Shown here: positions 42,318 to 47,833 of the stretch, one piece after another
Layout of the letters: each line of letters opens with the position of its first letter
Numbering within the stretch: position 1 is the first letter of the stretch
Assembly (NCBI GenBank): GCA_028687035.1
Contig: JAQUAX010000005.1
Coordinates: 62,001-126,000 of the forward strand
Reading direction: 5' to 3'
Length of the DNA stretch: 64,000 nt
Source of the DNA: Dechloromonas sp.
GTDB taxonomy: Bacteria; Pseudomonadota; Gammaproteobacteria; Burkholderiales; Rhodocyclaceae
Notes under the pieces: generated by a model
Databases searched by the model: none
What the model saw: only the letters and a program-made list of their open reading frames with translations
Told to the model about the DNA's origin: nothing
Translations under genes and position numbers: made by a program

Positions 42318-42988
42318 TGCGCTTCCAGTCGGTCACCTTCGACCTCGACGGCACGCTGCTCGACACCATCGTCGACCTGGCCGAGGCCTGCCGGCGGATG
42401 CTCGAGGAACTCGGCGAGCCGCCGCGCAGCCTGGCCGAGATCCACCGCTTCGTCGGCAAGGGCATGGCGGTGCTCGTCGAGCGCTGCCTGACGCGCGGCA
42501 GCGCGCCGAGCGCGGAGCGCCTGCACCACGCGATCGAGGTGTTCAAGCGCCACTACGCCGAGGTCAACGGGCATTACACCCAGATCTACCCGGGCGTCGT
42601 CGAGGGCCTGCAGGCGTGGAAGGCGAGCGGCCTGAAACTGGGCGTCGTCACCAACAAGCCGGGCATGTTCACCGAGGCGCTGCTCGAGCGCATGGGCCTG
42701 GCCGACTATTTCGACGTGGTCGTCTCCGGCGACACGACCGCGCACAAGAAGCCGCATCCGGAGCCCATCCTGCACGCCTGCCGGATCTTCGGCGTGTCGC
42801 CCGGCCGCAACCTGCATGTCGGCGACTCGCGGAACGACATCCATGCCGCCCATGCCGCGGGTTGCCCGTGCTACTGCGTGCCCTACGGCTACAACGAGGG
42901 CGAGCCGGTGGACAGCGCCGATTGCGATGCGCTAGTATCGGACCTGCCTGCCGCTTACCGGCAAGCCCTCAACGACAAGACCTCCTGA
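42317..42988 (+). CDS. gph: Phosphoglycolate phosphatase (HAD family)
   Basis: VTFDLDGTLLDT; ATGA overlap with rpe. Confidence 0.94.
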   Translation: MRFQSVTFDLDGTLLDTIVDLAEACRRMLEELGEPPRSLAEIHRFVGKGMAVLVERCLTRGSAPSAERLHHAIEVFKRHYAEVNGHYTQIYPGVVEGLQAWKASGLKLGVVTNKPGMFTEALLERMGLADYFDVVVSGDTTAHKKPHPEPILHACRIFGVSPGRNLHVGDSRNDIHAAHAAGCPCYCVPYGYNEGEPVDSADCDALVSDLPAAYRQALNDKTS

Positions 42989-42992
42989 CGAA

Positions 42993-43049
42993 ATGACGAA
43001 TCACCCGAACTGGAAAGACTGGCACGGCTGGCGCCCCTGGCGTCCGTAA
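42993..43049 (+). CDS. trpL: Candidate trp leader peptide, [18 protein letters not shown] (18 aa, 4 Trp)
   Basis: ORF starts 4 nt after the gph stop and ends 74 nt before trpE; four TGG codons at positions 7, 10, 13, 16. Confidence 0.8.
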
Positions 43050-43064
43050 ATTCCTGCCCGTTCG

Positions 43065-43079
43065 GCGCCCTCCGGGCGC
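43065..43079 (+). promoter_or_regulatory. Hairpin GCGCCC-tcc-GGGCGC in trpL-trpE leader
   Basis: Perfect 6-bp stem; an alternative upstream GCGCCC lies at 43031-43036 inside trpL. Confidence 0.6.
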
Positions 43080-43123
43080 ACCCGCATCCCGTTCGCAACT
43101 CCACGTCATTTTCGAGGCTCCCC

Positions 43124-44596
43124 ATGACTGAACAAGAATTCAACGCGCTCGCCGCGCAGGGCTACAACCGCATCCCGGTCACGCTCGAAACCTTCGCCGA
43201 TCTCGACACGCCGCTGTCGATCTACCTGAAGCTGGCCAACTGTCCTTTCAGCTACCTGCTCGAATCGGTGCAGGGCGGCGAACGCTTCGGCCGCTACTCG
43301 ATCATCGGCCTGCAGTCGCCGACCCGGCTGGTCGTCAATGGCCGCCAGGTGCTGGTGCTGACCGGCAACCGGATCGCCGAGCGCGCCGACGACATCAATC
43401 CGCTCGACTTCATCGATGCCTACATGGCACGCTTCAAGGCGCCGCCCGCGGTCGGCCTGCCGCGCTTCCTCGGCGGCCTGGTCGGCTGCTTCGGCTACGA
43501 CACCGTGCGCTACGTCGAGTCGCGCCTGGCGAAGCAGCTGCCCGATCCGGTCGGTACGCCGGACATCGGCCTCTTGCTGTCCGAGGAAATCGCCGTCGTC
43601 GATAACCTGTCCGGCAAGCTGACGCTGGTCGTCTATGCCGAACCCGGTTTCCCCGGCGCCTTCCAGAAGGCGCGCGCCCGGCTGAAGGAACTGCTCGGCC
43701 AGCTGCGCCAGCCGGTCGCGATCCCGGCCGAAAAGCCGGCGGCATCCGAGCCGGCGGTTTCCGGCTTCGGCGAGGAAGCGTTCAAGCAGGCAGTGCTGAA
43801 GGCCAAGGACTACATCACCGAAGGCGACATCATGCAGGTCGTGCTGTCGCAGCGCATGAGCAAGCCCCTGCACGCCAGCCCGCTGGCGCTGTACCGCACC
43901 TTGCGCAGCCTGAATCCGTCGCCCTACATGTTCTATTTCGACTTCGAGGATTACCACGTCGTCGGCGCGTCGCCGGAGATCCTGGTCCGCCTCGAGGGCG
44001 ACCGCGTCACCGTCCGCCCGATCGCCGGCACCCGCAAGCGCGGCGCGACGCCGGAAGAGGACCAGGCGCTGGCCGCGGAACTGCTCGCCGACCAGAAGGA
44101 ACTCGCCGAGCACACCCAGCTGCTCGACCTCGGGCGCAACGACTGCGGCCGCGTCGCCAGGGTCGGCTCGGTCAAGCTGACCGACCGCATGGTCATCGAG
44201 CGCTACTCGCACGTGATGCACATCGTCTCCAACGTCGAAGGCCGGCTGCAGGACGGGCTCGACGCGCTCGACGTGCTGCGCGCGACCTTCCCGGCCGGCA
44301 CCGTGTCCGGCGCGCCGAAGGTGCGGGCGATGGAGATCATCGACGAGCTGGAACCGGTCAAGCGCGGCATCTACGCCGGCTCGGTCGGCTACCTCGGCTT
44401 CAACGGCGACATGGACCTGGCGATCGCGATCCGCACCGCGGTGGTCAAGGACGGCCAGCTGTACGTCCAGGCCGGTGCCGGCATCGTCGCCGACTCCGAC
44501 CCGCAGTCGGAATGGGAAGAAACCCGCAACAAGGCGCGCGCCGTGCTGCGCGCCGCCGAACTGGCTGAGCAGGGGCTCGACACCCGCTTCGACTGA
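43124..44596 (+). CDS. trpE: Anthranilate synthase component I
   Basis: [55 protein letters not shown]. Confidence 0.97.
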
Positions 44597-44600
44597 GTCG

Positions 44601-45275
44601 CTAGGGCAGCCACTTCAGCCGGCGGAATACCCATTCGGTCGCCCACAGGCTGAAGTAGGTCGCGAACCACGCGAACACGCAGTCGGACAGGAAGTGCCCG
44701 CCGGCCGACAGCCGGACGAAGGCGAGCAATGCGCCGCCGGCCAGGCCGGCGGCCAGCCAGCGCCGGCGAACGGCGGGGGCGCCCAGCCAGCCGAAAGCCA
44801 TCAGGAAGGACGCCGTCGCGACGTGGCCGCTGACGAAGGAGCAGTTCTTGTCGCACTGTCCGCTCGGCACGAAGGCCGCGGTGAACTGCCGCGCGCCGCC
44901 GAATTCCGCGACCGTCAGCGGACGGGCGCGTCCCATGTGGTCCTTCAGTCCGGCATCGACGACCAGCACCGGGCCGAGCAGCGCCGCGGCGAGCAGGAAG
45001 CCGAAAGTCGCCCGCCTGGCGCGCAGCCACGGAAAGCGGCGCAGGTGGCCGAACAGCAGCGCCAGCGTCAATGCCAGCAGCAGGCCCTGGCCGAGGCGCG
45101 GCACGCCGCGGTACAGCGGTTCGAGCAGCGCCGTGTGGCGGGCGTACAGCCAGCTACCGTCGGTGAAGAGGCGGGCGCTGACGGCCAGGTCGATCTGCGG
45201 CAGCGCGACGAAAAGCGCGGCCAGCGCCGCGAACGCCGCCAGCGCGATGCGCAGTTCAATAGCCCTTGAAGCCAC
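44601..45275 (-). CDS. PAP2-family membrane phosphatase
   Basis: KDHMGRARP, CSFVSGHVATA, RLSAGGHFLSDCVFA: PAP2 motifs (KxxxxxxRP / SGH / SRxxxxxHxxxD-like). Confidence 0.9.
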   Translation of the reverse strand: MASRAIELRIALAAFAALAALFVALPQIDLAVSARLFTDGSWLYARHTALLEPLYRGVPRLGQGLLLALTLALLFGHLRRFPWLRARRATFGFLLAAALLGPVLVVDAGLKDHMGRARPLTVAEFGGARQFTAAFVPSGQCDKNCSFVSGHVATASFLMAFGWLGAPAVRRRWLAAGLAGGALLAFVRLSAGGHFLSDCVFAWFATYFSLWATEWVFRRLKWLP

Positions 45276-46728
45276 GGAGCAGGTAGACGTCCATCCGGCG
45301 CGCCGTCGTCGGGTCGAGCGGCGCGCGCAGTTCGCCGAGCTTGTCGGCGCCGGCGAAGCGGCCGAGCAGTTCGGCGCCGGGCGCGGCCTGCGTGATCAGC
45401 AGCGCGTCCTTGCCGATCCAGTCGCGCAGGTCGCTGGTCAGCTTGTAGTGGTCGCTCGCTTCGCCCTTCGGATTCCAGCTCGCGTAGCGCGGGTTCAGGT
45501 CGCGTAGCTCGTACAGCATGTGGGCGAGCAGCGTCCGGTTGTCGGCGACCAGCACGGCGTCCGGGTGGGCGCGGACGAGGGGGGCCAGCTGGCGGCCCAG
45601 TTCGTCCCAGCCCATCGCGCGGGCGTAGGGATTCATTTTGGCCGGATTCTTCAGGTCCACCGCGGCGATGATCGCCGGCCAGTGGTAGGCGATGCCGACC
45701 AGCAGCAGGTTCAGCGCGATGCCGGCGACGAGCAGGCCCTGCCGGCCGCGGGCCAGCAGCCAGGCGACGGCGGCGATCGCGGCCGGCGCGAAGGCCGGTG
45801 CCGCCCAGTTGGCGTTGGCGCCGCTGCGCGCCGCCTGCAGCGAGACGACCGCCCACAGGGGCAGCGCGAACCACAGCAGCAGCCGGGTGTTGGGTTCCCG
45901 CCAGCTGGCGCGGGCGCGGAGCAGCAGCCAGACGAAGACGCTGCCGAGCACCGGCCCGAAGGACAGCCACTGGGCGGCCCAGAATTCGCCGAGCGCGGCC
46001 GGCCCGCCGGCGGCATGCTTCTGCAGCGTGATGTCGGCGGTGTGCTTCAGCGTCGGGAAATCGTGCGCGACGTTCCACGCGAGGTTGGGGCCGAGCAGTG
46101 CCAGTGCCAGCGCGGCAGCGGCCCAGGGCTTGGCCGAGCCGAGGCGCGGCCGGTGGAAGGCGAGCAGATGCAGGAAGGCGGCGCCGAGGAAGGCGGCCAT
46201 CGTGTACTTGGACAGCAGGCCGAGGCCGCAGACGGCGCCGACCAGCAGCCAGTCTGACCAGCGGTCGGTATCGAGCGCGCGCAGCCAGGCCCACAAGGCG
46301 AGCGTCCAGCACAGCGTCAGCAGCGCGTCGGTCGAGACGAACAGGCCGAGCCACGAGAAGATCGGCAGCGTCAGCACGGCGAGCGCCGACCAGAACGCGG
46401 TGCGCCGGTCGTACAGGCGGGCGGCGATCGCCCAGCAGGCGGCGGCGGCGAGCGGGTAGCACCCCATCGCCAGCGCCTTGACGCCGAGCAGTCCGTCGCC
46501 GAACAGCCGCGTCGATACCCAGATCAGTGCCGCGATGCCCGGCGGCTTGGAGTAGTAGCCCCAGTCGAGGTTTTCGGCCCAGGTCCAGTACTGCGCCTCG
46601 TCGACGTACAGCGTGATGCCCAGCTGCGGCAGCAGCCAGACGCGCCAGGCCAGCAGCAGGACGGCCAGTTCGGCCAGCAGGCGCACGCCGTAACGATCGA
46701 CGATGCCGCCGTCGACCGCAGCGCTCAC
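45256..46728 (-). CDS. ArnT-like (PMT/GT83) glycosyltransferase
   Basis: GITLYVDEAQYWTWAENLDWGYYSKPPGIAALIWVSTRLFGD N-terminal motif; polytopic; GTG start overlapping GT2 stop. Confidence 0.88.
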   Translation of the reverse strand: MSAAVDGGIVDRYGVRLLAELAVLLLAWRVWLLPQLGITLYVDEAQYWTWAENLDWGYYSKPPGIAALIWVSTRLFGDGLLGVKALAMGCYPLAAAACWAIAARLYDRRTAFWSALAVLTLPIFSWLGLFVSTDALLTLCWTLALWAWLRALDTDRWSDWLLVGAVCGLGLLSKYTMAAFLGAAFLHLLAFHRPRLGSAKPWAAAALALALLGPNLAWNVAHDFPTLKHTADITLQKHAAGGPAALGEFWAAQWLSFGPVLGSVFVWLLLRARASWREPNTRLLLWFALPLWAVVSLQAARSGANANWAAPAFAPAAIAAVAWLLARGRQGLLVAGIALNLLLVGIAYHWPAIIAAVDLKNPAKMNPYARAMGWDELGRQLAPLVRAHPDAVLVADNRTLLAHMLYELRDLNPRYASWNPKGEASDHYKLTSDLRDWIGKDALLITQAAPGAELLGRFAGADKLGELRAPLDPTTARRMDVYLLRGFKGY

Positions 46729-47723
46729 GCGTGCCAGCCTTCGTCGGCGGCGAGCGGCTTCTCGGGGCGCGCCGAATACGAGCGGACGGTGCCCGATTCG
46801 AAATAGACGCGGGCGAGCAGTTCGGCGAGCACGCCGGTGGTGATGAAATGCACGCCGGCGATCAGGCCGCCGATGCCGACGATCAGCAGCGGGCGGCCGC
46901 CGATCGATTCGCCGAGGCCGAACTTGACCCAGGCCAGCCAGGTCAGCACCAGGCCGGAAATCGCGGTCAGGCCCAGCCCGATGCCGCCGAAGAAGTGGCC
47001 GGGGCGGGCGCGGAAGCGCATGAAGAAATAGACAGCGATCAGGTCCAGGATCACGCGGAAGGTTCGCGAGATGCCGTACTTGGAAACGCCGGCGGTGCGC
47101 GGGTGGTGCGTCGTCGGTTCCTGGGCGATGCGGCGCGGCGTCGTCACGGTGGCCAGCCAGGCCGGGATGAAGCGGTGCATTTCGCCGTACAGCCGGACGC
47201 GCCGGATCACGTCGCCGCGAAAGGCCTTCAGGCTGCAGCCGTAGTCGCGCAGATGCACGCCGGTCATCCGGGCGATCAGCTTGTTGGCGATCTTCGACGG
47301 AATCTTGCGCAGGAACAGGCCGTCCTGGCGGTTCTTGCGCCAGCCGGCGACGAGGTCGAGGTCCTCGTTCAGCAGCCGGCCGACCATACGCGGGATGTCG
47401 ATCGGGTCGTTCTGCAGGTCGCCGTCCATGGTCACGATGACGTCGCCTCGCGCCGCGTCGACGCCGGCCTGCATCGCGGCGGTCTGCTTGTAGTTGCGGG
47501 TCAGTTCGACGGTACGCACGTGCGGGCCGTATTCGCGGGCAGCCTGCAGCGCGCGGTCGACGGTGCCGTCGCTGCTGCCGTCGTCGACCAGCACCAGTTC
47601 CCAAGGGTTGCCGTAGCCGGCGAGCGCTTCATGCACGCGCTTGACCAGCGGGGCGACGTTGTCCTCCTCGTTGTACAGGGGAACGACGACGGACAGGCTG
47701 TGGGGGGGCAAGGCGGCGCTCAT
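46725..47723 (-). CDS. Family 2 polyprenyl-phosphate glycosyltransferase (ArnC/DPM1-like) with two C-terminal TM segments
   Basis: LSVVVPLYNEEDNVAPLV, MDGDLQNDPIDIPRMV, C-terminal TM pair. Confidence 0.9.
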   Translation of the reverse strand: MSAALPPHSLSVVVPLYNEEDNVAPLVKRVHEALAGYGNPWELVLVDDGSSDGTVDRALQAAREYGPHVRTVELTRNYKQTAAMQAGVDAARGDVIVTMDGDLQNDPIDIPRMVGRLLNEDLDLVAGWRKNRQDGLFLRKIPSKIANKLIARMTGVHLRDYGCSLKAFRGDVIRRVRLYGEMHRFIPAWLATVTTPRRIAQEPTTHHPRTAGVSKYGISRTFRVILDLIAVYFFMRFRARPGHFFGGIGLGLTAISGLVLTWLAWVKFGLGESIGGRPLLIVGIGGLIAGVHFITTGVLAELLARVYFESGTVRSYSARPEKPLAADEGWHA

Positions 47724-47833
47724 GGCGGAATCCAGCGGCAAAAGGCGAAATAAGCGCGCATTTTAATCGAAAAGGAGGGGGCGGACGTTTAATGTAAAAT
47801 TGCCGGCTTGCGAATTGACGAGGAATCGCCGGC

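Follow-up and report, generated by a model that had tools for sequence, protein, structure and literature searches.

Attenuation at trp genes is textbook RNA-based control, and a short reading frame rich in Trp codons ahead of trpE, whose product is the first committed enzyme of tryptophan synthesis, in the 64-kb stretch of Dechloromonas DNA analysed here (the window; contig positions 62001-126000), raises the question of whether it encodes a conserved leader peptide and, if so, whether that leader would act on the transcription or on the translation of trpE.

The reading frame ahead of trpE

The genes rpe, gph and trpE, named from homology and context, lie consecutively on the + strand of the window, with relatives of trpE found across the family at up to 86% identity. 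A preliminary description had placed an 18-codon reading frame between gph and trpE, and direct reading of the DNA confirms the geometry that it gave: 4 nt separate the gph stop codon (TGA, 42986-42988) from the leader ATG, a further 74 nt separate the leader stop codon from the trpE ATG, and TGG codons stand at positions 7, 10, 13 and 16 of the frame (43011, 43020, 43029 and 43038; features are collected in Table 1). Small ORFs with four Trp codons number two among 1102 in the window (start-to-stop ORFs of 8–30 codons); the second, at 44601-44678 on the − strand, was rejected as a leader because it forms, in the same frame, the C-terminal end of a longer ORF (44601-45275). As a DNA pattern, TGG(N6TGG)x3 occurs once in the window against 0.02 expected from dinucleotide shuffles, while in the 3.3-Mb genome, where the statistics are those of this pattern search, it occurs five times against four for a reversed control pattern; since the spaced pattern is not rare genome-wide, the weight of the argument rests on the position of the leader, a short ORF with an excess of Trp codons directly 5′ of a trp gene, and on its conservation.

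Further downstream, no Trp-rich ORF was found in the ~90 nt 5′ of trpG, ruling out a leader for that gene within this interval. Reverse-strand ORFs, phosphatase-like or glycosyltransferase-like by appearance only, occupy the region between trpE and trpG (window 44597-47833).

Table 1. Features of the gph–trpE region in window coordinates; arms, hairpins and promoter are predictions.
Feature	Coordinates	Strand	Description
Predicted trpE promoter	42909-42938	+	−35 TGGACA 42909-42914, 18-nt spacer, −10 TAGTAT 42933-42938; in gph 3′ end
gph-like phosphoglycolate phosphatase gene	42320-42988	+	5′ of leader; predicted promoter in its 3′ end
Arm A (outer)	CCUC 42981-42984; GAAAUGACG 42990-42998	+	Holds leader start codon; predicted to pair with trpE SD region (MFE/centroid fold, duplex tests)
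trp leader peptide ORF	42993-43049	+	18 codons; ATG 42993, stop TAA 43047-43049
Arm A (inner)	CGAACUGG 43006-43013	+	Includes Trp codon 7; predicted to pair with 43088-43095 (fold)
Hairpin GGCGCC-CCU-GGCGUC	43030-43044	+	Over Trp codons 13-16 (fold and consensus fold of seven relatives)
GC hairpin GCGCCC-UCC-GGGCGC	43065-43079	+	3′ of leader stop; without U-tract
Arm D	CC/GUUCG 43088-43095; CGUCAUUUU 43104-43112; trpE SD GAGG 43114-43117	+	Predicted to pair with arm A
trpE (anthranilate synthase component I)	43124-44596	+	Putative regulated gene; ORF, homology and context

The conservation of the leader was assessed in the upstream regions of the 80 best trpE relatives among public genomes, to which another 109 genomes from the family were added. 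The preliminary description had taken the frame for a probable trp leader peptide. Conservation of the ORF and its Trp codons was the decisive check, and both are conserved: six close relatives (L083, L084, L086, L095, L098 and L003) carry ORFs of the same 18 codons in which all four Trp codons are retained at 7, 10, 13 and 16 and the N-terminal half is variable, the encoded peptides including MTTQRLWNDWQGWRPWRP (L083), MTTLRLWNEWQGWRRWRP (L084), MTFSRNWNEWHGWRRWRP (L086), MTTSRNWNEWQGWRRWRH (L095) and MTFSLLWNDWLGWRLWRP (L003, an Azonexus MAG). The leaders of other genomes differ but also have Trp close to their stop codon, for example ...GAEAWPWRP, ...RWRGWRWPTGL, ...RGAWPWRR and ...SWRWRH. 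Under a fixed rule, which required 10–36 codons, two or more Trp among the 14 C-terminal residues and a stop codon 35–165 nt before trpE, leaders were recognised in 88 of 110 family genomes (3.2 expected from dinucleotide shuffles), in 44 of 79 members of the best-relatives set (4.4 expected) and in 18 of 60 members of a class-wide sample (2.6 expected); small ORFs with at least three Trp were present in 58 of the 110 family genomes, against 0.2 in shuffles. These comparisons of sequence strongly support the small ORF as a conserved trp leader peptide ahead of trpE, with Trp-rich leaders across the family and beyond. The regular spacing of the Trp codons had also been proposed to spread stalling along the frame; WxxWxxWxxW was found only in the window's clade, with WPWR, WRW, RWWR and similar arrangements elsewhere, and spread stalling is therefore not a general principle of these leaders.

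Predicted pairing of the leader start with the trpE ribosome-binding site

The MFE fold of 42980-43130 has as its outermost helix one that brings together the leader start and the Shine–Dalgarno (SD) region of trpE: CCUC pairs with GAGG, GAAAUGACG with CGUCAUUUU, and CGAAC (43006-43010) with GUUCG (43091-43095), a counterpart of the inner pairing being present in the folds of relatives. The hairpin over Trp codons 13–16 may be merely a product of the TGG-CGN coding repeat. Since the stability of the whole region relative to shuffles is only moderate (z −1.6), the pairing of arm A with arm D was examined by comparison across genomes, in an own-versus-cross duplex test that set each leader region against the trpE ribosome-binding site (RBS) of its own genome and against the RBSs of other genomes, with leader starts picked by a fixed rule blind to pairing.

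Across 122 dereplicated leaders, the mean duplex energy was −22.5 kcal/mol with the own trpE RBS and −16.9 kcal/mol with foreign RBSs, and the own RBS outdid all 30 foreign RBSs in 34 of the 122, where ~4 would be expected. The own-genome gain amounted to approximately −2.5 to −3.1 kcal/mol in Rhodocyclaceae-type genomes (n=78) and to −3.7 to −4.9 kcal/mol in other beta- and gammaproteobacterial genomes (n=44). Eighteen leaders from a class-wide sample, collected later, gave gains of −5.0 and −5.9 kcal/mol at two leader-start intervals, with the own RBS within the top 2% for seven and eight of the 18, respectively; over the three samples, the extra own-genome pairing thus spans 2.5–5.9 kcal/mol. 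Six other segment pairs (A:B, A:C, B:C, B:D, C:D and upstream:D) gave no clear own-genome preference, remaining near chance, and a sliding scan confined the signal to leader positions −10 to +30 against trpE positions −26 to 0, with nothing comparable elsewhere.

RNAalifold, applied to structure-blind MAFFT alignments of two subgroups selected by leader type, returned a closing helix composed of CCUC/GAGG and CUCCAC/GUGGAG. The register of the helix slips between clades and column-by-column covariation is consequently thin, leaving the own-versus-cross comparison as the stronger test. The A:D signal is a result for the population, with individual loci often unremarkable: the duplex of the window itself is average (z −1.4), and the close relatives L083 and L084 have no A:D pairing by duplex score. 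As judged from sequence comparison, the leader ORF, its Trp codons and an A:D complementarity specific to each genome are well supported, and a helix between leader region and SD, the hallmark sought for a translational attenuator, is present as a predicted helix supported by comparison.

Level of control and a proposed mechanism

An attenuator of transcription was implied in the preliminary description, and a classical scheme after E. coli trpL, in which stalling at Trp codons would decide whether an antiterminator or an intrinsic terminator forms, suits a multi-Trp leader that stands before trpE and is followed, past its stop codon, by a GC hairpin. No U-tract follows this hairpin, however, and no terminator-like site was found on the + strand of the window; among relatives, a hairpin followed by U-rich sequence is seen in a few (e.g. 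L003, L132 and L206), and terminator-like sites occur in 36 of 150 loci (17 of 88 in the family) against 22 in shuffles that preserve base composition only, an excess too weak for an E. coli-type terminator to be retained. Rfam searches, at the gathering threshold and at E up to 10, returned no match, Trp leader families included, so that neither of the two marks sought for a trpL-type attenuator was found. With no terminator at the locus, and with the trpE RBS rather than the middle region as the conserved, genome-specific partner of the leader, translational control is likelier than transcription attenuation, and the implied transcription attenuator is considered unlikely.

Attenuation through Rho, whereby leader translation would set the exposure of a C-rich stretch (43080-43104) or an untranslated trpE would permit intragenic Rho termination, is held to be improbable to a like degree: the C-rich stretch itself and the missing intrinsic terminator are in its favour, but the genome-by-genome match of leader start and trpE RBS is left unexplained. 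Rho polarity would follow from a block of trpE translation, and Rho may for this reason accompany translational control, its action on untranslated trpE being one that could add to the effect.

The initiation of the leader may be tied to the gene upstream. An SD sequence is missing from most leaders, whose mean energy of pairing with the anti-SD is −1.0 kcal/mol where that of trpE is −4.7 kcal/mol, and none precedes the ATG in the window; gph lies 5′ of trpE in 176 of 249 upstream regions (tblastn), and ~19 of the 106 loci that could be placed have the gph stop codon and the leader ATG overlapping in the sequence ATGA (e.g. L083, L084, L095 and L098). The poverty of SD sequences together with this overlap makes initiation coupled to gph translation plausible. 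A role of the small ORF in translational coupling or reinitiation, with an incidental Trp content, is a reading for which the same two observations speak but which is very improbable, given Trp-rich C-terminal ends far above shuffles, the retention of four Trp codons while flanking residues vary, and a distance of ~50–100 nt from leader stop to trpE, long for reinitiation.

A promoter-like element in the 3′ end of gph was identified by a consensus scan (0.1 in shuffles); GCGATGCGCTAGTATC is invariant, wobble positions included, in nine aligned clade sequences, and TACTAT or TATAGT variants occupy the same gph codons in ~80 upstream regions. The conservation of this element suggests a separate trpE transcript with a predicted start near 42945.

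Taken with the pairing results, the locus is probably a ribosome-mediated attenuator that senses Trp and has its main effect on trpE translation, by sequestration of the SD. Transcription would start inside gph, read-through from rpe-gph also being possible, and arm A, at the leader start, would pair with arm D, at the trpE RBS, hiding the trpE SD. When Trp-tRNA is plentiful, ribosomes would clear the leader, the A:D helix would form and trpE would be poorly translated; when Trp-tRNA is scarce, ribosomes stalled at Trp codons, together with others queued or initiating behind them, would cover arm A and leave the SD open. Within this scheme, the level of control, the dependence on Trp, the sense in which the switch works and the queueing are what we infer.

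If a ribosome footprint is assumed, a ribosome stalled at codon 7, 10 or 13 of the window's leader overlaps arm A directly, and one at codon 16 or at the stop codon does not. In an equilibrium model containing neither queueing dynamics nor co-transcriptional kinetics, the openness of the trpE SD was 0.24 both in ribosome-free RNA and when a ribosome occupied the leader stop, and 0.39 when one occupied the leader start; a stall with a queue gave 0.29 versus 0.24 at the stop codon (P=0.001), and a single stall at the first Trp codon gave 0.25 versus 0.24 (P=0.15). The model speaks for a ribosome on the leader start as the putative key event and lends weak support to a role for a single stalled ribosome; as a single stall barely alters the modelled SD, the switch would lean on queueing or co-transcriptional kinetics. 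A broader proposition is evenly poised, namely that a translational trp attenuator distinct from a terminator switch is widespread in beta- and gammaproteobacteria, in which the leader start and the trpE RBS change together as a long-range helix, the base-pair register slips freely, and occupancy of a leader devoid of an SD gates trpE.

Relation to known leader systems

In a search of the literature that did not take in key work on attenuation in Proteobacteria (Vitreschak 2004, Merino 2008, Lopatovskaya 2010, Olekhnovich and Gussin 2001), this arrangement was not found described, and its novelty, as a variant of trp leader attenuation, is therefore provisional. For attenuation variants overlapping the ribosome-binding site, PMC4833913 refers to Lopatovskaya 2010.

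If the proposed mechanism is true, the hiding of an RBS in place of a terminator would change the reading of trpE regulation across betaproteobacteria and many gammaproteobacteria, and would account for leaders that terminator-based screens would overlook; the design, leader start against SD, would be a simple and directly testable one.

In E. coli, the trpL leader is a short ORF with Trp codons before trpE, on which stalled ribosomes sense the level of Trp-tRNA. The present locus resembles it in its short Trp-codon leader ORF ahead of trpE, and differs in that the Trp codons of trpL are adjacent and an intrinsic terminator is present there, whereas here the Trp codons are spaced, the window lacks a U-tailed terminator, the leader is predicted to pair with the trpE RBS, and Rfam gives no match. 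In inducible erm leaders, a ribosome stalled on the leader ORF keeps the SD of the downstream gene from being hidden by pairing, and the mechanism proposed here, a stalled ribosome preventing SD-hiding pairing, is alike in kind; the arrest is antibiotic-induced in the erm leaders, whereas amino-acid limitation would bring it about here, and the two share no homology. Attenuation at trpE and trpGDC of Pseudomonas, an instance of trpE attenuation in gammaproteobacteria, was reportedly treated by Olekhnovich and Gussin in 2001, and the gph-trpE gene order offers a likeness, being common to many of the genomes studied here.

In Sinorhizobium meliloti, trpL-trpE(G) is described as being under transcription attenuation, the termination falling between trpL and trpE(G), the RNA begins at the ATG of the trpL leader, and Trp-dependent repression of transcription is absent (PMC7298713). 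A leader ORF likewise precedes trpE here, and the genome holds no match to the Trp repressor (Pfam accession: PF01371) over the Pfam cut-off, the best scoring 13.5 bits against a cut-off of 27; the predicted promoter, unlike the S. meliloti start at the leader ATG, lies ~55 nt 5′ of the leader. The actinobacterial LEU element 5′ of leuA, in which a run of Leu codons and the SD together form the paired base of a pseudoknot (PMC1262725), shares with the present locus a leader ORF in which codons for the cognate amino acid abound, as well as a helix that takes in the SD of a biosynthetic gene; the difference lies in the pairing segment, which here is predicted to be the leader start, with the Trp codons downstream of it or within the inner arm.
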